In this document: piece by piece, positions 12,482 through 52,600 of the stretch
Layout of the letters: every line of letters begins with the position of its first letter
Position numbering within the stretch: position 1 is the stretch's first letter
Assembly: GCA_034687125.1 (NCBI GenBank)
Contig: JAQGBZ010000045.1
Location: 186,001-250,000 of the forward strand
Direction of reading: 5' to 3'
Length of the DNA stretch: 64,000 nt
Source: Neelides folsomi
Taxonomy: Eukaryota > Arthropoda > Collembola > Neelipleona > Neelidae
Translations under genes and position numbers: made by a program
The notes under the pieces: model-generated
Told to the model about the DNA's origin: nothing
The model's database searches: none
The model's input: the letters and a program-made list of their open reading frames with translations, nothing else

Positions 12482-12573
12482 TAAAAGAAAATGCATTTGT
12501 GATGAATGATGAAACATGAAATGAAACGTGACAGTCATTGGATGAAAATGAGGGGTTTATTTTTAAAATAAAT
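12482..12573 (+). repeat. Direct repeat, copy 1 left part
   Basis: About 90% identical by eye to 14427-14517 (shared words include AAAATGCATTTGTG, ATGAAACGTGAC and GAAAATGAGGGG). The rest of this copy continues at 13216 after an interruption. Confidence 0.8.
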
Positions 12574-13215: not shown

Positions 13216-13250
13216 TAAATATTGTAAAATTTATTTAGCATTGGTTAGAG
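13216..13250 (+). repeat. Direct repeat, copy 1 right part
   Basis: Matches 14513-14547 (TAAATAT.GTAAAATTTATTTAGC and following bases). It completes copy 1 of the roughly 125-bp repeat that flanks the transposase region. Confidence 0.75.
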
Positions 13251-13281
13251 CTAAAGCTGTGATTTTCAAGATCCGAACGTG

Positions 13282-13374
13282 GTAACGCAGTGATAATCAA
13301 GTTCGGAAAGACGTAACACAGTGATAATCAAGATCGGATAGTCGTAACTCTGAGATAATCAAGTTCGGAAAGTC
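13282..13374 (+). repeat. Three tandem copies of a 31-bp unit
   Basis: Units at 13282-13312, 13313-13343 and 13344-13374, each of the form GTAAC...GATAATCAAG.TCGGA.AG.C, with a degenerate partial copy at 13261-13281. It ends exactly where the transposase open frame begins. Confidence 0.85.
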
Positions 13375-14164
13375 GTGCTGATTAAGTTGACAAATGAATT
13401 TCCACGAACATATTCAAAGATAAGTATAAGCAAATATACATGGTTTGAAACTTCATTAAAAATCAGTTACCAACTAGCTTTGGAGCTCACTGTTTATTGG
13501 TTTTTTGAAACTAAAGTTACTTACGCTGCCGGATATATTGGAGTCTGTCCTGGAACTGCCATTGATTGGTACAATTATTGTCGAGAGATTTGTTTTACGA
13601 TATTAAATAACGACAATATAGCAATTGGTGGTGATGGGCTACATGTCGAGATTGACGAGTCTCACATTTTCAGGCGCAAGTACATGAGGGGCCGTCAACT
13701 TGCAAATGAAGATGTTTGGATTTTTGGGGGAATCTGCAGAGAGACTAGACAGAGTTTCATTCGATGGGTACTAAATCGAACTACAGCTACTCTTTACCCA
13801 ATAAAAAGTTGCTTCCGGTTCTATCATTATTTCGGATTCAGCTCGTGTGTATTTGGGTATTACAAGAGATTTAGGGTTTCAGGCATTTATGGTGAACCAC
13901 AGCCTTAATTTTGTTAATCCCAATAATCCCAATGTTCACACCAATCTCCAAGAAGGGCAATGGAGATTGGCAATAAAAGGATTTGCTAAAAATGATCATG
14001 TAAATGATTATCAGCATATGGGACATTATCTTGCCGAATTTCTATACCGGAAGCAATTTTTAAACGTCTCAACAGACGCCGAGAGAAGGAACCTCGGTAC
14101 GAAGTTGAGAGTTTTCCTCGGCCATGTGGCTGAGGTGTACCCCGGACCTCAAGGAGGTCAATAA
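13375..14164 (+). pseudogene. Merlin / ISXO2-like DDE transposase, frameshifted remnant
   Basis: Two overlapping frames (13375-13908 and 13847-14164) together look like the ISXO2/IS1595-type DDE transposase used by Merlin DNA transposons. An N-terminal segment of the form T..DWY..CREIC precedes the catalytic core. The first Asp is in VEIDES (codon 13654-13656), followed by RRKYMRGR and VWIFGGICRET. The second is in SDSARVY (13835-13837), and the third acidic residue is in HTNLQEGQW (13952-13954). A frameshift between about 13785 and 13832 separates the first Asp from the second, so the gene is broken. The N-terminus is short and no start codon or terminal inverted repeats were identified. It lies 388 bp beyond the ZnT5-like stop codon, in opposite orientation. 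Confidence 0.82.
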
Positions 14165-14426: not shown

Positions 14427-14550
14427 TAAATAGAAAATGCATTTGTGTGATGAAACGTGAAATGAAACGTGACAAAGTCATTGGGTGAAAATGAGGGGGT
14501 TCTTTTTAAAATAAATATGGTAAAATTTATTTAGCATTGGTTAAAGCGTA
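14427..14550 (+). repeat. Direct repeat, copy 2 (overlaps ZnT5-like 3' UTR)
   Basis: Uninterrupted copy of the sequence split at 12482-12573 / 13216-13250. It ends 2 bp beyond the stop codon of the ZnT5-like gene and contains that gene's only nearby AATAAA signal. Confidence 0.8.
14526..14531 (-). promoter_or_regulatory. Poly(A) signal of the ZnT5-like gene
   Basis: TTTATT on the plus strand reads AATAAA on the minus strand, 21 bp after the stop codon at 14552. It lies inside the duplicated 125-bp repeat. Confidence 0.6.
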
Positions 14551-14551
14551 A

Positions 14552-17500
14552 TTAAATAGATGATGTCGGAGAAGGAGGATTTGAGGATTGCGGTGAGCTC
14601 CTTCGCGCAACAAATTCCTCCTTTTCTATTTGAGTCGTAAAATGGGCGAAGCCCAATGGGAGAAACAAATCGTTGACAGATCGCCAAACCTCCTATTAAA
14701 AATAATAAGCATGTTTAAAATAGTAAATAAATAATATTTACATACAATATAATATCGTTGCCAAAAACCGTTTAGACCAACATATTTACAAATGGATGTT
14801 ACAATGCTAATTTATTTAGATTCATATTAAAAATTGAAACTAACTTGTTCAGCTGCTTCAGCCGTAACTTGCACATGCAACGACCCCGTGGTGATATCGT
14901 GAGCAAATGTCCAAAATCTCGGTTCTTTATATCCCTTCACACCGTCCATGGCGAGGATTTGTAATAAAACGCCTTGCAAACGACGTTCAAGCCCCACAGG
15001 ACCACCAAGAGCCAACATTCGTCTATGTCAAGAACAAAATATTTAAAATATTGGAAAAGCAACGAGCCAATTCATTCTTACGTATTATTGGCAAGTAATG
15101 GAATTCCATCATAAAGTAGAAGTGCAGCCGAGATGATTCCAGCAATTCCTCCTAAAAGCCCCCACCATTCTCCCCATAAATATCCTATTATTAATGGTAT
15201 GAGTCCTCCAATTTCTCCTCCGACCCGCAGAAAGAGACCTATACAAAATATACATAATCTTCATATTGACTCTCATAAAAGATTAATAGAAAATACATAT
15301 TTATGTTAAAATTGCTTCAGATTTACATTAAGAGACTCAATAATACATACCTTTGAAAGAATTTTGGCTAGAAGTTACAAATGGTCGAGAAAGACTTGTA
15401 ATCAGAGCGACGAAACATAAAAAACCCACAATTGGCGGAGGAGAAATCTGAGGAGTTTCGAGTAAAAACGTCCTTAAACTCCCGGACGCTATCACAGGAC
15501 TCAATAGGCACATACATAGACTCAAGAGGAATTCGTACAAAACCTCCACACGCCCAAATCTTTTTCAGAAAAAATATTTTAATCCTTAAAAGTCATTCTC
15601 ACAATTAGAATTAAAACTTAATAAAAATTTACAATGGAATTTAATATTACAGGTTATTCTTGGATAGTTGTGTAAAATCAAGGATAATAGAAGAGAATAA
15701 ATAAAAATAAATTATGAAATAACATTTTATTCATAATATTAAATTACCCAAATGGGAAAGACTTCGTTGGCGGAATTTGCCTCACAATGTTATTGAGTAT
15801 AGGAGAAAATAATAATGCAGCCTTAATTGTTTGTCTCGTTCCTTCAGCCAAGAGGCCTACATGTCCAAGAATATCTCCGGCAGTGAGAAGCGTAAGTCCG
15901 ACAATTGAATTTAAAAAGAGGAAGAGAAAACGGCGACGTGACCCGCCGTCCGCCTTCAAATGCCTCAAAAGGGTCCCCAGGGCGAGGAAGAAGTAAGAGC
16001 TGTATGAAGGCTGTTGTTCTTCTATTCCTCGGTCTTGGAAGTTGAAGAGGGGAAGGCCATCAGAGGAATAGCCAACAAGGGAGCCTCCTCCACTTGCCTC
16101 TTCACGGCCGCTCACGAGGATTACTCCTGAACACAAACAAATACCGGCTCTTATATAGACAAATGTTGTAACATGAGTAGTGTTAATAAATATGTTATTA
16201 TCGATAAACTGTAACATGATAAGTACTTTAGTTAATATATTGGAAAATAAATTGACATACAGTCTCTAACTAATAAAAGGGCATTTAGTTCATGTGCTTT
16301 ATAATATGCCTTAAAAGCGAACACTAATATGATTATATAAGAAATACTTCTTTGATAAGGTTATCAACTGAGGTCAAAAGTTCTTTAAAAAATTAAATGT
16401 AAAGTAAAAAATTATTGATAATGAAAGTAATGAATAATTAAAAACCTGCTGAGACGAGGGCGAGGGCCGCAAACGAAGAAAAATTTGGCGGTTCATTGGT
16501 CAGCCATAATAATGAGATAAGAGCAGCGGAGTATAAAGAAACGCATGATGCCCAGCGACCACCCAAACGACGTTCCAATCTATAAGATGCAATTTGAGTT
16601 TTAAATTAATAATATTAATAATTGACAAAACTCACAATTAGTGACTCTTTATGGCAAGGTTTCTAACTATAACTATAACCTAAAGTGTTTAAATAGTAAT
16701 AATAATACTATTAAAAAATAATTTAAACGAACCTCCCAGAAACAATCTTTCCAACATAAGTGTCAACAATGAAACCAGCAATGACAACGAAAAAGAGGAG
16801 TGGCACGCGCGACCAAAACCCACTTAAATCTTCATCCTAAAATTTATATATTAAAAAATTATAAATACAAAAAGATAAGCATTGCAAAGTTTCCATTTGC
16901 TTTGAAATACTTAAGACTTACCCCATGTAGTATTGCGAAGGAAGAAACGAGAGTTAAAAAGCTTCCAGAGAGAATTCCTCCTAACCCATCCACACGTTGG
17001 ATTCCTCCCAGATCAGTAGCCAAGTTTGAGGCCAGTGCATTCTTGCCCAGTCGAACAATACTTATTGTCCATAATATTAAAACACCAATCTAAAATATTA
17101 ATTATTAATAAACTATTACATTATGTTTTTAATAATTTGAGCTTAGTATGGAAGATTGTGTTAATTACAGAATAGGGAGTCAGATATTGGTATTGAGAAG
17201 ATATCAAGGTAGGAGTTATGGCGAGTTTGTCTTCATTAAAGAAGAGAACAAGGACGCCAAGGAAAAATAGAATTCCTCCACGAAATCGTGATCCTGTTCT
17301 TCCTGTATAAATGAGAAAACGATTAAATCTCTTTGTCTTGGATAAGCAATGAAATATTGTAATATTCAGTAGACCAATGTTTTTTACGAACATTATATTA
17401 AATATAATAAACTTTCAATTATAAATTTAATAAAAAATAATTTGAATATATTCGCAATCTACCAACAAATATTCCAGATGTAACTGATGCAATTATAAAA

Positions 17501-18155
17501 TCATCATGTGCTGTAATAATGATAGCAGTCAATGGGCCACATAGTTCAAGTCCAACAGAGAATCCAAGTAAAATTATTGTCTAGAATTGCAATTATTCGA
17601 TATTAGGCTTAAAATGCTTTTATCATGTGGGTATTTGGATTATAATTAAAATTTACTTACCCCAAGAAATGCATTCCGAAGAATTCTGACAAAATCCCCA
17701 AATTTGATCCATTTCTCACTTCCAGTTGTTCCATTTGTTTTAGAACACGGTGAAGGCTTCCGAATAAGAAAATACACAATCCCCGATCTGAAATGTGTGT
17801 AAAAATTAAAAGTATAAAGATACATATTCAGAATAAAGAGATACATTATAAGATTTATTAATGTATATAATTATCTGTATAATTAGAATTACGTGAATTG
17901 TATTAAGGCAACAGAGTGGACTGTAACAGCATAATGTCCAAATAACCGGCTCTTCCCTTCTTCGGCGACCTTTAAAACGTCGGCGTAAACGAAGGCTCCC
18001 AACGTCGTAAAAATTTTACATCCTATCAAGAGGCCAGTGACCCAAAGTCGAATTCTCTTCCCTCTCCCGTAAATACTACTGCTCTTATTAATAATGATCT
18101 CATCTTGATTCTCGCCTCTGGAGATGGTCGGAACCGTTCCGGGGAGTCTTCCCAT
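14552..18155 (-). CDS. ZnT5 (SLC30A5)-like protein lacking zinc-site residues, 12 exons
   Basis: ZnT5 loads zinc into the early secretory pathway, as a heterodimer with ZnT6 in vertebrates. Exons: 18155-17893, 17787-17661, 17580-17463, 17302-17169, 17089-16922, 16836-16733, 16579-16446, 16126-15748, 15559-15351, 15238-15082, 15022-14845, 14692-14552; all phases agree; 703 aa (human ZnT5 765). The long N-terminal multi-TM half peculiar to ZnT5 is present (LELCGPLTA, FRGGILFF). The junction SLVGYSSDGLPLFNF parallels human TLIGYSPEGTPLYNF, FGRVEVL parallels YGRIEIL, and the C-terminal domain has YKEPRFW, GSLHVQVT and TTQIEKEEF. Oddity: the TM2 motif H...D (human SDGFHMLFD) is AEGTRQTIK here (Arg447, Lys451). 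The TM5 motif H...D is R...E (Arg550, Glu554). The His-rich loop is gone. Transport by the usual site is therefore unlikely, and a structural or partner role is inferred. All exons are open, so this is not a plain pseudogene. Confidence 0.88.
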
Positions 18156-18466: not shown

Positions 18467-19118
18467 ATGGAGGAGACTCCGCCGTCGTCACCGGCCCCTC
18501 CTTCCGTCCCGCCACCATCACCCGAACCGCCGAGACTCCAATTGACCTCCTTCCTCGACGGGGACGAGGAGACGGTCGAAATTGTCGCCACTGCCGCGAA
18601 CCTTGTACCCAAAGTCTGTGATATTCTTGGCATCTCACACAGGTGAACCTCGTTGTTCTTTTTTATAATCTTTTTTTATCGTAAGATTACATCCCATTCT
18701 TATAATCTTAAGATAGCTTACTAAAATACTTGCTCTTGAATCATAAATCAACATAGTTATCAATTCCTCAAATTGTTTGAACAAGGCCTTAATGGATTTA
18801 CTTTATAATGGCAGTTGGAGCGAGTGTGATGAAAATGAAGGAGGAGGGGAACGAAACGATGACCCACGACGCAATTTAAAAAGGAGGAGGTCGGGGTCGA
18901 GGGAATCTCGAGAGAGGTCATCTACAGTGGAGGAACTTGACCCGGTGAGGAAAAAGCTCCGAGCCGACCTCGACACTCTCACAGTCCAAGTCCGGGCGTT
19001 GGGAGCTTTGGAGGCGGCCAAGACCCGACTGCTCGAAACTCTCCGTCGTCATCAAGAACAACAAAACTCCCACCGATTACCCGATCAACGAGACGAAGAT
19101 GGAGAAGAGGGTTTGTAA
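18467..19118 (+). CDS. Unrecognised basic / coiled-coil protein, 2 exons
   Basis: Not recognised. Exons 18467-18642 and 18815-19118 (172-bp GT-AG intron, phase 2) give 159 aa. The N-terminus is Pro-rich (about residues 1-25), followed by a short conserved-looking helix region (LTSFLDGDEETVEIVATAAN, then VPKVCDILGI). A charged basic strip RRNLKRRRSGSRESRERSS resembles a nuclear localisation signal. A heptad-like Leu-rich helix (LDPVRKKLRADLDTLTVQVR onward) then suggests a coiled coil. Its GC content is much higher than the flanking DNA and there are no stops, which supports real coding sequence. The acceptor was chosen to keep phase; an alternative at AACAAG|GCC would be out of phase. It is divergent from the ZnT5-like gene. 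The role could be nuclear or chromatin-associated, from composition alone. Confidence 0.6.
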
Positions 19119-41718: not shown

Positions 41719-42959
41719 TCACGGACCAAAGAGGAAAGAAAATGATTGGTGTATCAGTTTCACCAAATCTGTAGTCGTGGTAGATCTTCCATTCTGAGAA
41801 TACTGGAACAGAAAAGAACATAAATACATGCCATTCTCAAGAATTTCAATATTGTCATTTTAGATAAATATATTTCTGGAAATGCAAATTAATTCTTACA
41901 GCGAGTCTCGCGCATTCTCTTGTAAGACGACAAGCGCCATAAGCAGCTAAGAGATCAGGGGGAGCTGGAGCTTCGCCCCGGTCACCAAAAGAAGAAGCCC
42001 AATGATAAAGGACGGCAAGAGTTCCAGCAAGGAGATCTCCTTGGCCGCCACAACGACGATTGCTTCCTCCACCAGTACAACAAACAGTGAGACGACCATT
42101 TGATGCTACATCTGTCGCACTGTTCAAAAAAATATTTTTTTCTTAAATAAATAATTAAAATGTTTAAATATTAACAGATTCGTTGAATGGTATTGGTTTG
42201 GTAGATTACCCTTTGTGTAGAATTGTAACAAATCCGAGAGCGGCAGAGAGTTCACGAACCTTTAAAATTAAATTCAGTAATAATTTGAATGTTGAATTCT
42301 ATACCAAATACATTTTATAACAGAGTTGATAAATTGTGGATTTTTTACTCATTATATTATTATTTATTTAACATAATTTACGTTATTACCTTTTCTGTTG
42401 AAGCAGACGGAGCCGGTTTGACTTCCGACCCAAGGACGGCTGTACAGAGCCTGGAAAACTCTACCGAATTGGGAGTGAGAATCGCTTTCGAATATCCTTG
42501 GATGAGATCGGGTGATTGAGTAATGATAAAAAGACCGTCAGCATCAATAACAAGAGGCTTTTCCATCTCCTTCAGCTTTACAATTAATTTCTTCACGTTC
42601 TCGAGAACGACCGGGTCTCGTCCAAGACCCGGACCGATGACGAATGCATGCATTCGAGGAGCCCATTCAAGAATTCCTTCAACTCCACCTTCGACATCCA
42701 GGAGGGGATGAACGATTAGCTCTGGAGAATAGCTCTTGATCACAGTCGACGCTGCACGACAGCAAAAGATGTGAGCGAGATCGGCCCCGACTTTGAGGGC
42801 GGATATGGCTGAGAAGTAGGGAGCTCCGGTGTATTCCTCGCTCCCGCCTACGACCGCTATTCTTCCGGCTTGACCCTTGTGCATGGCATTGGAGAGGGAT
42901 GGAATTGTTTGCTTGGCAGAGAACAGCAAAGCGTCCTCGGAAATCGGGGTGTTACTCAT
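41719..42959 (-). CDS. NAXD: ATP-dependent (S)-NAD(P)H-hydrate dehydratase, 4 exons
   Basis: Repairs hydrated NAD(P)H back to NAD(P)H using ATP (with the epimerase NAXE). Exons: 42959-42390, 42259-42210, 42119-41900, 41802-41719; phases agree; 307 aa from this start. Ribokinase-like fold: [20 protein letters not shown] and [15 protein letters not shown] match the human N-terminal region. [11 protein letters not shown] and LVIDADGL follow, then the signature [15 protein letters not shown] with the catalytic Asp (about 235), and [11 protein letters not shown] at the C-terminus. Start: ATG at 42959. An acceptor (ACTTTTTCAG) just upstream at about 43039 and the absence of any ATG on the minus strand between it and this codon favour an upstream leader exon and this start. 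A frame open to 43082 would give an N-terminal extension if unspliced; no clear mitochondrial peptide is seen. It lies between two NKCC genes, opposite strand. Confidence 0.92.
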
Positions 42960-43633
42960 CCTTCTCCGACCCGCTATTTTACCCGCTAATGGCTTAATGT
43001 TGATCAAAAAAGTTGTCCAACTCCGACTCACGTACAGCCTGAAAAAGTTTAATGAATTAAATCGAATATACAAATTTTTCAAAATATAGTAAAAATGTAA
43101 AAATATTTAAGTAACATTTAATTAACAATATTTTACATTTAGCCACAAATAATGACAAATTCACACATGGTTAACTCGACGAAAGATTCAAATCGAAGGT
43201 AAATCTGGTTAATGTAAATAAAGAGCCAATAAACTCGCTTTCAAATAATTCACCGCGAAATATAGCAGAAAAAAGCCGAAGAACTTAAATACATTACTGA
43301 TTTATATAAATTGTTTAAGCTTTTATTGTTACAGTATAGAAGATAACTCAGGGCAATTTTTTTTAAACAATTTCTTTTTGACAAGTGTGCAGAATAAAGT
43401 TAGATTACCTTTTGGTTTAGAATATCCTTTGAACAAGTAATTGGGATATATAGTAAATGTAAATTCTCTTATTTTTCTTTAGTTTTGCAGACAATTAATG
43501 TCAGAGTTATAAACCGAAGTGAAATGATTTAAGTTGATGTTGAAGGAGGTTGTCTGCGGAAGATGTGGTTTTGTAGGATGTTGATGAGAAAGTGAGTCCT
43601 CGCAATCGCAGGGCCTTCGATCCGAATCTTCGG

Positions 43634-49600: not shown

Positions 49601-52600
49601 TCACTGCACTACCTCATCAAACTCATCATACTCCACATTTGAGCTCAGACGGTTTTTTATCTTAAGTCTTTAGAGTTTATAAGTTGAAGGGAAATGAAAT
49701 GGCATTGAGTCATGTAGCTATTAAATTATCTGCAAGAAGAAGTCCTTCGTTTAAATGAAAGGGAGTGTTTGGAGTGTGAGTCGGCTTATTTTAATGGTCA
49801 TGTTGGAAGGGTCATAATTGGGGTGTCGGGAGAGGAAGAAGCCAACGAACACCTTCCCTACAACTCATGGAGTGTTAAAGAGGGTTCGGATCATTATACC
49901 TCCAAAGACTTCGATGACTTCAATCCCCTTTTTGTATATAAGTAACTACAAATACATACATATTGTATATCTGTATATGCCATTTTGAGAACGCTTTCTC
50001 CTGTAGGATCCTGGATAATATACGAGGCCAGTGATCCCATTGTTAAGAAGAAATGATCCTCGTTAAACTCCCTTGGACCTTTTTCTTTATCTCTTCAAAG
50101 GATGGTTTTGTGGATGTAATTGAGTGCTGTGTATAATCCCTATGTTTTTATTCTTTTTAGTCGGTGGGAAAAGTGGACGAGGATGGTCCAGCGCTTAAAG
50201 GAAAAGTCATAAAGTTCGGATGGCTCGAAGGAGTATTGGTACGAAATGAATCCCTTTGAACTTCTCTACCACTTAATATTGTAAATTGTAACTACCATAA
50301 TTTTTAAGTATGATATACCTACTTATATTTAACAATATGTTATAAGAAGTTATAAAGTTCTAATACAAATCATAAATATTCTACCGTATATGAGTAAGTG
50401 TAAGGCTCATATAAGTAATATATTTATCATGTATAGATGAGATGCCTGTTGAATATTTGGGGTGTGATGCTTTTTCTTCGGCTTTCCTGGGTTGTTGGAC
50501 AAGCAGGAATTGGTAATTGACACTTTTGTCATAAGATGAAACTTAATATGAATTAATGAAAATGATGAAATTAGTTATTTAATGGTTAAATTAAATTTAA
50601 TGGCTAAATTAATGATTTATAGTGGAAGGGATTTTGCTCATTTCTCTCGCCAATCTTGTGACATTCATCACAGCGTTTTCCATGTCTGCCGTGTCAACAA
50701 ATGGACAGATCAAAGGAGGCGGAATTTACTACATGATTTCCCGATCCCTTGGCCCAGAATTTGGAGCGGCAATTGGTCTGATGTTCACTGTAGCGAATTC
50801 CATTGCTGTTTCACTTTACATCGTTGGATTTTGTGAGTCGCTTAATGATTTGCTGGAGGCAAACAATTGGGGCGTGATCATCGACGGAGGCTCAAATGAT
50901 GTTCGGGTCATTGGGGTAATTTTCCATCATAAACTCAATTTTAATTTTCTTACCCATACTTATTATAAATTCAATAAAATTAAGATTTGGAGTGTTTTAA
51001 TACGTACTGATTTATTCATGACAGGTTGCGGTCCTCATTGGAGTACTAGGTGAACAATTTGAACACTTTTCCAACCTTAGTTCTTTTCCTTTACGTGTTT
51101 TTTAATTTCAGTCTTGGCCTTCGTGGGAATGGATTGGGTGACGAGGGTAAAAGTTTATTACTTACTCAACTTTAAATTTACTTTCCTAGTATTTTTCCAC
51201 AAATTTATGAATTAAGTTACAACGTGCTGTTTAATAATTTCAGACGCAAATGTTCCTCCTCTTTGTCCTTCTTGCTGGTATGTAAACTTCCATTTAGATG
51301 CCGATGATGAGTTTTCTCTTCGCACTTCAATGCACTTTAATTTATAGCTCAAGTTGATTTCATCATTGGAAGCTTCATTGGTCCGGACGATGATTTGGAG
51401 AAAGCTAAAGGATTTACTGGATTTGCTGGTACAAATATTTTTTGATAAGAATATAAATTACTTATAAGTATTAATTTAACAAGTAACTAAATTATTAATT
51501 GATAATTTATTTATTATGAATTTTAATTTTTTTTATTCTTCAGCTCAAACCTTTCAAGAAAACACATATTCTGATTATCGTACTGGATTGGATGGGGACA
51601 AAACTCAACAAGATTTTTTCACCGTCTTCGGTGTATTTTTCCCAGCCGTAACGGGAATTGTGGCTGGTGCCAATTTGAGCGGAGATTTGAAAGATCCTGG
51701 TTCAGCCATTCCGAAAGGAACTTTGTTGGCCATTTTCCTCACTTACCTTTCTTACATTGGATATGCCATCATGATGGGAGGTTGCGCGATCCGAGAAGCT
51801 TCTGGAGATGTCAATGAATATCTAGAAACTTTTAATGAAACTGCACGAGAATTGTCGCCAAACTTTACAGACTTTCGTGATTGCGCCAATCGCGAGTGCA
51901 AATATGGCATGCTAAACAGCCCCCAGGTAAATAAATACATTTTTCTCAGTTTTTTCTTAACTTTTTTTCATTGCAGGTGATGGAACTCATTTCTTCCTGG
52001 GGTCCATTAATTTACATGTAAGAAGAAAAAGTTAAAAAATTGCAATTAACAAACATTTACATTTTCATAGGGGTTGTTTTGCTGCAACGTTGTCTTCAGC
52101 TATTGCAAGTCTCGTTGGAGCTCCAAGAGTTTTTCAAGTAATTTGAGAACCGCTTTCTCAATTATTTAATAATTCCAATTGCATGTTGATTTAATCATTT
52201 ATACTTTTTTAGGCTCTTTGTAAAGATAAGCTTTACCCGGTGATTCACTTCTTTGCCAAAGGTTATGGAGCTAATGATGACCCCGTGCGAGGATATGTTC
52301 TTGTCTTCATAATTTCTCTAGGCTGTCTCCTCATTGGTAAAGCTTTAATACTCCCATTGATATCCAACCTATAATAGTTATTAATAAAAACAAGTTTAAT
52401 TAATTTGAGATTAATTCAGCTGAACTGAACCTGATTGCTCCGCTTCTTTCAAACTTTTTCTTAGCGGCATACTGCCTTATTAATTTCTCCGTCTTCCACG
52501 CTTCCATCTCAAAGGTTTCGTCACATTTTATGAATGATTTAATTCGGGTTTTATGGGTTTTATTTATAAAATTGAATAAATTGCAGTCACCAGGCTGGCG

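Follow-up and report, generated by a model that had tools for sequence, protein, structure and literature searches.

We analyzed a window of 64,000 nucleotides from the genome of the collembolan Neelides folsomi (assembly GCA_034687125.1, 75.1 Mb in 840 contigs; contig 45, JAQGBZ010000045.1, positions 186001-250000), which hosts on its minus strand a gene resembling that of the zinc transporter ZnT5 (SLC30A5). Sequence alignments give good support to the conclusion that the encoded protein, hereafter the window protein, has lost its canonical zinc site. The best overall reading, to which we assign a probability of about one half, is that ZnT5 and its partner ZnT6 have been retained in this animal as a complex that does not transport zinc.

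Absence of the canonical zinc site

Proteins of the CDF (SLC30) family are expected to carry an intramembrane site of His and Asp (or Asn and Asp) residues, and this site is not present in the window protein. ZnT7 and ZnT8 from the PDB have His and Asp in the second transmembrane segment (TM2) and again His and Asp in TM5. In the corresponding columns the window protein has R447 and K451, and R550 and E554. The human ZnT5 sequence likewise has the four canonical residues at these positions; the human ZnT5 and ZnT6 references used here are not database copies, and the length of the former, 765 residues, is the one quoted in PMC3538338. In the HMMER alignment with ZnT7, the window protein reads GLLAEGTRQTIKAA under GLISDSFHMFFDST in TM2 and GLFLRVGGEIGG under GVFLHILADTLG in TM5, and no gap adjoins either site. 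When the ZnT7 stretches are taken alone, TM2 is weak with 15 bits, whereas TM5 reaches a strong 32 bits. One continuous alignment with ZnT8 (residues 430-672, 24 bits) returns the same register at all four ligand positions.

The two alignments therefore keep the register of the original prediction, which had been made from the DNA alone and had reported these four replacements with the right residue numbers, rather than placing ligands elsewhere in TM2 or TM5. Its observation that the His-rich TM4-TM5 loop is missing also holds, since no cluster of His is present in this loop; there are 9 His in the entire protein. Neither His nor Asp occurs in the region around TM5 (residues 540-570). Different splicing that restores the His/Asp motifs, a possibility raised with the prediction, was rejected because inspection of the window revealed no alternative exon with such a motif for TM2 or TM5. 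With the canonical site gone, zinc transport of the canonical kind is very improbable, and we are confident that it has been lost.

Zinc could conceivably still be carried through an unconventional site, for example one that involves Glu554, Glu444 or the pair Asp434/His438, or the remaining TM2 Asp of ZnT6. Glu can bind zinc, and Asp434-x-x-x-His438 has a ligand-like spacing 13 residues before the canonical TM2 positions. However, this pair lies near the junction of TM1 and TM2, off the site, TM5 offers no His or Asp, and Arg447, Lys451 and Arg550 would repel a cation. We consider such a site highly improbable.

The four ligand positions are all charged, which is more than the charge content of the helices would predict (P = 3.7e-5, 7.7e-5 and 2.9e-4 for three choices of the TM2 and TM5 helix ends, which we set ourselves). 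Because of this excess, the former zinc cavity of ZnT5 seems to stay polar. The excess fits the original idea that fixed charges may mimic bound metal, insofar as it places a charge at every ligand position. A polar, charge-reversed cavity may instead allow ZnT5-ZnT6 to transport a non-zinc substrate, such as protons, an anion or an organic ion. In favor of this, charge occupies four out of four positions (P from about 4e-5 to 3e-4) and the cavity seems to stay polar, not hydrophobic as in ZnT6. Yet conservation in the window protein is lowest in the CDF membrane part, the Arg/Lys/Arg/Glu residues could equally form an inert salt-bridge cluster, and we know of no CDF protein that moves anions. 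Transport of another substrate thus appears quite unlikely.

Gene structure and descent from ZnT5

The ZnT5-like gene spans window positions 18155-14552 on the minus strand and is composed of 12 stop-free stretches that join into 703 codons plus a stop. All introns are GT-AG and between 59 and 319 bases long; an alternative last acceptor 3 bases further is possible and would cost one residue. Given the composition of the introns, about 60 stops are expected in 703 codons and none is observed. The GC content of the exons is 0.51, 0.45 and 0.37 at the three codon positions, compared with 0.21 in the introns. The open frame, the coding composition and the GT-AG joins identify this locus as a gene and not a long-standing relic. 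An open 12-exon gene aligning along its length with ZnT5 had been predicted, and the joins, the reading frame and the alignment agree with it. The features of the gene, in window positions, are as follows.

17893..18155, minus strand: exon 1, start codon and N-terminal ZnT5-type membrane part
17661..17787, minus strand: exon 2
17463..17580, minus strand: exon 3, carries GLELCGPL (GLTLCGPL in the human ZnT5 reference)
17169..17302, minus strand: exon 4
16922..17089, minus strand: exon 5
16733..16836, minus strand: exon 6
16446..16579, minus strand: exon 7
15748..16126, minus strand: exon 8, ZnT5 linker motif LVGYSSDGLPLFNF, CDF TM1 and TM2
15834..15836, minus strand: Arg447 codon, at the position of the TM2 His zinc ligand
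15822..15824, minus strand: Lys451 codon, at the position of the TM2 Asp zinc ligand
15351..15559, minus strand: exon 9, TM3, luminal loop and TM4, with a short His-free TM4-TM5 loop
15082..15238, minus strand: exon 10, TM5 and TM6
15225..15227, minus strand: Arg550 codon, at the position of the TM5 His zinc ligand
15213..15215, minus strand: Glu554 codon, at the position of the TM5 Asp zinc ligand
14845..15022, minus strand: exon 11, C-terminal cytosolic domain, KEPRFWTF
14552..14692, minus strand: exon 12, end of the C-terminal domain, QIEKEEF, stop codon

The Pfam family PF01545 (Cation_efflux) matches residues 416-601 of the window protein (E = 8.4e-12, 45.7 bits, cut-off 26.6). By HMMER, the best solved-structure match of the whole protein is ZnT7 (SLC30A7; 8j7t, E = 8.5e-12). 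Unlike the window protein, ZnT7 has a full zinc site and no N-terminal extension. The window protein is instead built as ZnT5, with a ZnT5-type N-terminal extension followed by the CDF domain. Hydropathy peaks run across residues 35-360, and nine extra membrane segments in a long N-terminal part are described as a mark of ZnT5 (PMC7949119). Over the N-terminal 405 residues, the alignment with the human ZnT5 reference has 99 identities among 357 aligned residues. The two proteins also have in common the GLxLCGPL motif, the GYS-x-x-G-x-PLxNF linker (L-x-GYS-x-x-G-x-PLxNF in its longer form) and a C-terminal domain ending in Q-[VI]-EKE. In Pfam, the N-terminal part returned nothing above the cut-off, with PsbJ and DUF4943 as weak matches below it; that of the human ZnT5 reference has no Pfam match either, and a two-row profile of the N-terminal part had no match in the PDB. 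The N-terminal alignment, the GLxLCGPL and linker motifs and the extra membrane part together give good support to the descent of the window protein from ZnT5. It differs from ZnT5 in the four replaced transport-site residues, in the lack of a His-rich TM4-TM5 loop and in the luminal loop, where the Pro-Pro of ZnT5 falls in an alignment gap.

Other CDF genes and the search for a canonical ZnT5 or ZnT7

We found further CDF genes in the genome. Four are of the ZnT1 type (contigs 94, 604, 217 and 28), two of the ZnT2 type (contigs 622 and 389) and one of the ZnT9 type (contig 3); these types are our reading of the translations. As a control, we inspected the six ZnT1-type and ZnT2-type genes, and five of them (contigs 94, 604, 217, 622 and 389) keep His and Asp in both TM2 and TM5. 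The ZnT1-type genes on contigs 94 and 604 are very similar, with identical TM2 and TM5 motifs, and represent either a recent duplication or two haplotypes. The two ZnT2-type genes (contigs 622 and 389) are similar to each other and have intact transport sites, but their C-terminal HxxHxW motifs, HNLRIW and HNLRLW, have Arg in place of the second His. The change from HFW to RFW in ZnT5 and to LFW in ZnT6 was considered as a second mark of demetallation and dropped, since these site-intact ZnT2-type genes also have Arg.

Searches of the assembly with PF01545, ZnT7, ZnT5, the window protein and DNA patterns of TM2 and TM5 turned up neither a canonical ZnT5 nor a canonical ZnT7. The window gene is the only full-length ZnT5 copy found in the 75.1 Mb. 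A DNA pattern fitting the TM5 motif of human ZnT5 and ZnT7 has two matches in the genome, both in ZnT1-type genes. The TM2 pattern, allowing one mismatch, has three, which were discarded because all have stop-ridden translations without likeness to transporters. PF01545 alone missed both the window gene and ZnT6, and a strongly diverged ZnT7 could thus escape it too. A canonical ZnT7 should be caught unless its motif is split by an intron or the gene lies outside the 840 contigs. In a rough check of completeness, class I tRNA-synthetase matches were present on five contigs. Canonical ZnT5 and ZnT7 are therefore probably absent from the genome, and the window gene looks like the ZnT5 orthologue itself. 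It would be truly puzzling for an animal to have neither ZnT7 nor a functional ZnT5, given that silencing of the fly ZnT7 orthologue ZnT86D in neurons has fatal developmental effects (PMC9569493).

The original prediction had instead proposed that the genome also encodes a canonical ZnT5 or ZnT7, with the window gene as an extra pseudo-transporter paralogue that may regulate it. The loss of the zinc site, on which this proposal was built, is real, a gene may be missing from the 840 contigs, and the search by family, which overlooked two CDF genes, is not exhaustive. However, family, protein and motif-pattern searches all failed to return such a transporter, in an assembly with tRNA-synthetase matches on five contigs. 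The window gene is therefore unlike an additional copy beside a working ZnT5, and we regard this proposal as improbable.

The partner ZnT6

ZnT6 is described as the auxiliary half of the ZnT5-ZnT6 heterodimer, and the two proteins likely pair through their C-terminal domains (PMC7949119). We identified a ZnT6 (SLC30A6) gene on contig 232 (81227-82546), in which eight joined exons are open; the first coding exon was not found. Its product matches PF01545 (E = 1.3e-7) and is identical to the human ZnT6 reference at 123 of 330 residues. In a MAFFT alignment its ligand positions are Leu and Asp in TM2 and Phe and Gly in TM5, compared with Leu and Asp, and Phe and Asp, in the human ZnT6 reference. 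The TM2 register recurs in a very weak PDB stretch (3.4 bits). TM5 lies outside that stretch, and its register is based on the human ZnT6 reference and on an equal distance of 23 residues from TM5 to the TM6 Asp, counted by hand. By this alignment, ZnT6 of N. folsomi is without the TM5 Asp that human ZnT6 keeps. An assignment of TM5 by eye to a QKNFKG stretch, with Lys and Gly at the ligand positions, was overruled by MAFFT and by the 23-residue distance. That ZnT6 has become the new holder of the catalytic site was also rejected, given the residues at its four positions.

Human ZnT6 has no N-terminal part, carries hydrophobic residues in place of the two His and keeps both Asp. The loss of two coordinating residues through hydrophobic substitutions is also how ZnT6 is described in PMC7949119. 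The window protein is similar to ZnT6 in being a CDF protein with an incomplete transport site. It differs in that all four positions are charged, with three basic residues and one Glu, and a separate ZnT6 exists in the same genome. The presence of this gene makes plausible the structural or regulatory role alongside ZnT6 that had been suggested for the window protein. A comparable pair is formed by yeast Msc2 and Zrg17, a ZnT5 homologue and a partner with only a partial CDF signature (PMC7949119, PMC3538338, PMC1868760). However, the delivery of zinc to the endoplasmic reticulum is ascribed to Msc2 (PMC7949119), whereas here both partners are without a site.

Conservation of the transport core and the C-terminal domain

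To locate where constraint lies, we counted identities with the human reference proteins along ZnT5 and ZnT6. The window protein is identical to human ZnT5 at 97 of 336 residues within positions 1-380, at 42 of 187 in the CDF membrane part and at 27 of 88 in the C-terminal domain. For ZnT6 the counts are 73 of 242 in the membrane part and 48 of 80 in the C-terminal domain. Both proteins are thus more strongly conserved in the C-terminal dimerisation domain than in the transport core. Human ZnT5 and human ZnT7 show the reverse order (94 of 160 in the membrane part and 24 of 84 in the C-terminal domain), although this yardstick is unclean because the two are paralogs that differ in their partners and the ZnT7 sequence is a piece without its middle. 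These counts suggest that constraint has moved away from the transport core, which would now be the least guarded portion of the proteins.

A proposed ZnT5-ZnT6 complex without zinc transport

Neither half of the presumed heterodimer would be able to build a His/Asp zinc site, and the complex thus probably does not move zinc. In the reading that we favor, the C-terminal domains of ZnT5 and ZnT6 would still pair, and the Arg/Lys/Arg/Glu cluster would fill the zinc cavity of ZnT5, where salt bridges may lock the fold as metal would. The complex would be kept for a job independent of transport, such as the stabilising or sorting of secretory client enzymes, and the luminal zinc supply may have been taken over by other CDF proteins of the ZnT2 or ZnT1 type. 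Alkaline phosphatases need luminal zinc, and matches to them are present on five contigs (520, 89, 517, 385 and 695). According to a review, ZnT5-6 and ZnT7 that were transport-null could still block the degradation of alkaline phosphatases, perhaps depending on cell type (PMC7949119), and a two-step model has been proposed in which the enzyme is stabilised and then metallated (PMC5666860). A stabilising or sorting role in particular is a tentative proposal. The complete scenario, in which the sites of ZnT5 and ZnT6 are lost, ZnT7 is gone, phosphatases remain, a transport-independent role persists and a charge cluster replaces the metal, may hold, although we would not expect it to do so in full.

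Several observations weigh against this interpretation. Only 44 of 124 aligned residues common to human ZnT5 and ZnT7 are retained in the window protein, and the loss of the four ligands is therefore partly expected from general divergence; by this count it belongs to a broader drift that affects the transport core. In the luminal loop between TM3 and TM4, a Pro-Pro motif has been implicated in the activation of alkaline phosphatase (PMC5666860, PMC7949119). The human Pro-Pro falls in an alignment gap, with a PPP a few residues further along, which may speak against a conventional phosphatase role. Altered sites, by our reading, also reach beyond ZnT5-ZnT6, because the ZnT1-type gene on contig 28 (197000-206000; minus strand, around 4711-3171 in this region) has DAYHMLYN in TM2 and GIVETFRDSFG in TM5. 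We aligned its site as His and Asn, and Glu and Asp; its C-terminal HDFHVW is kept. The 60% identity of the ZnT6 C-terminal domain may be ordinary for ZnT6. Finally, the comparison rests on one genome with respect to the age of the changed site and the selection on it; a pattern scan of viral contigs for relatives gave 28 matches, none of which was confirmed.

The same 44 of 124 residues favor the alternative that ZnT5 and ZnT6 are decaying slowly after the zinc supply has moved to other transporters. Ligand positions have been lost in both partners, no ZnT7 was found in the assembly, and repeats lie beside a transposase-like frame near the stop codon of ZnT5. Against decay, the 703 codons are open where some 60 stops would be expected, and splice sites and coding composition are intact. 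ZnT6 is likewise open over its eight joined exons, with 48 of 80 residues of its C-terminal domain identical to the human protein. We regard slow decay as unlikely.

The loss of the ZnT5 site is a sound and unusual sequence observation, and the retained function is unproved. A ZnT5 without its zinc site was not found in a literature search made at the level of titles and abstract openings. Conservation of the ZnT5-ZnT6 heterodimer has been described across eukaryotes, with yeast and plants among them, and this complex and ZnT7 are routes by which zinc reaches secreted and surface enzymes (PMC7949119). The stabilising effect discussed for these transporters is possibly free of transport and is difficult to tell apart from zinc supply (PMC7949119). 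If a non-transporting complex is indeed retained, an animal with ZnT5 and ZnT6 but no zinc site would amount to a natural experiment in separation of function. What selection preserves in it would then be the non-zinc job of the complex, including that of the N-terminal part of ZnT5, which is little understood. A further question is how alkaline phosphatases receive their zinc in such an animal.

Surroundings of the gene

Downstream of the ZnT5-like gene, direct repeats of 27 and 41 nucleotides (96% and 93% alike) lie about 1.94 kb apart, at window positions 12507-12573 and 14448-14547. They flank the transposase-like frame (13354-13908), which has no Pfam match and which we take to be ISXO2-like. 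A stretch of 36 nucleotides starting at 13216 recurs at 14512-14547 (94%), where four bases separate its end from the ZnT5 stop codon. Positions 13247-13370 are occupied by tandem units of 31 nucleotides, which are degenerate. On the other side, a gene-like stretch on the plus strand (around 18467-19117, read by eye) is arranged head to head with the ZnT5-like gene. Its start lies about 310 bases away from the start codon of ZnT5, and the two may have a common promoter. Elsewhere in the window we identified an NAD(P)H-hydrate dehydratase (42378-43106, minus strand; PF01256, E = 7.2e-38) and an exon of amino acid permease type (51480-51980, plus strand; PF00324, E = 1.9e-16). In the assembly, cytochrome oxidase subunit I (COX1) is located on contig 742.

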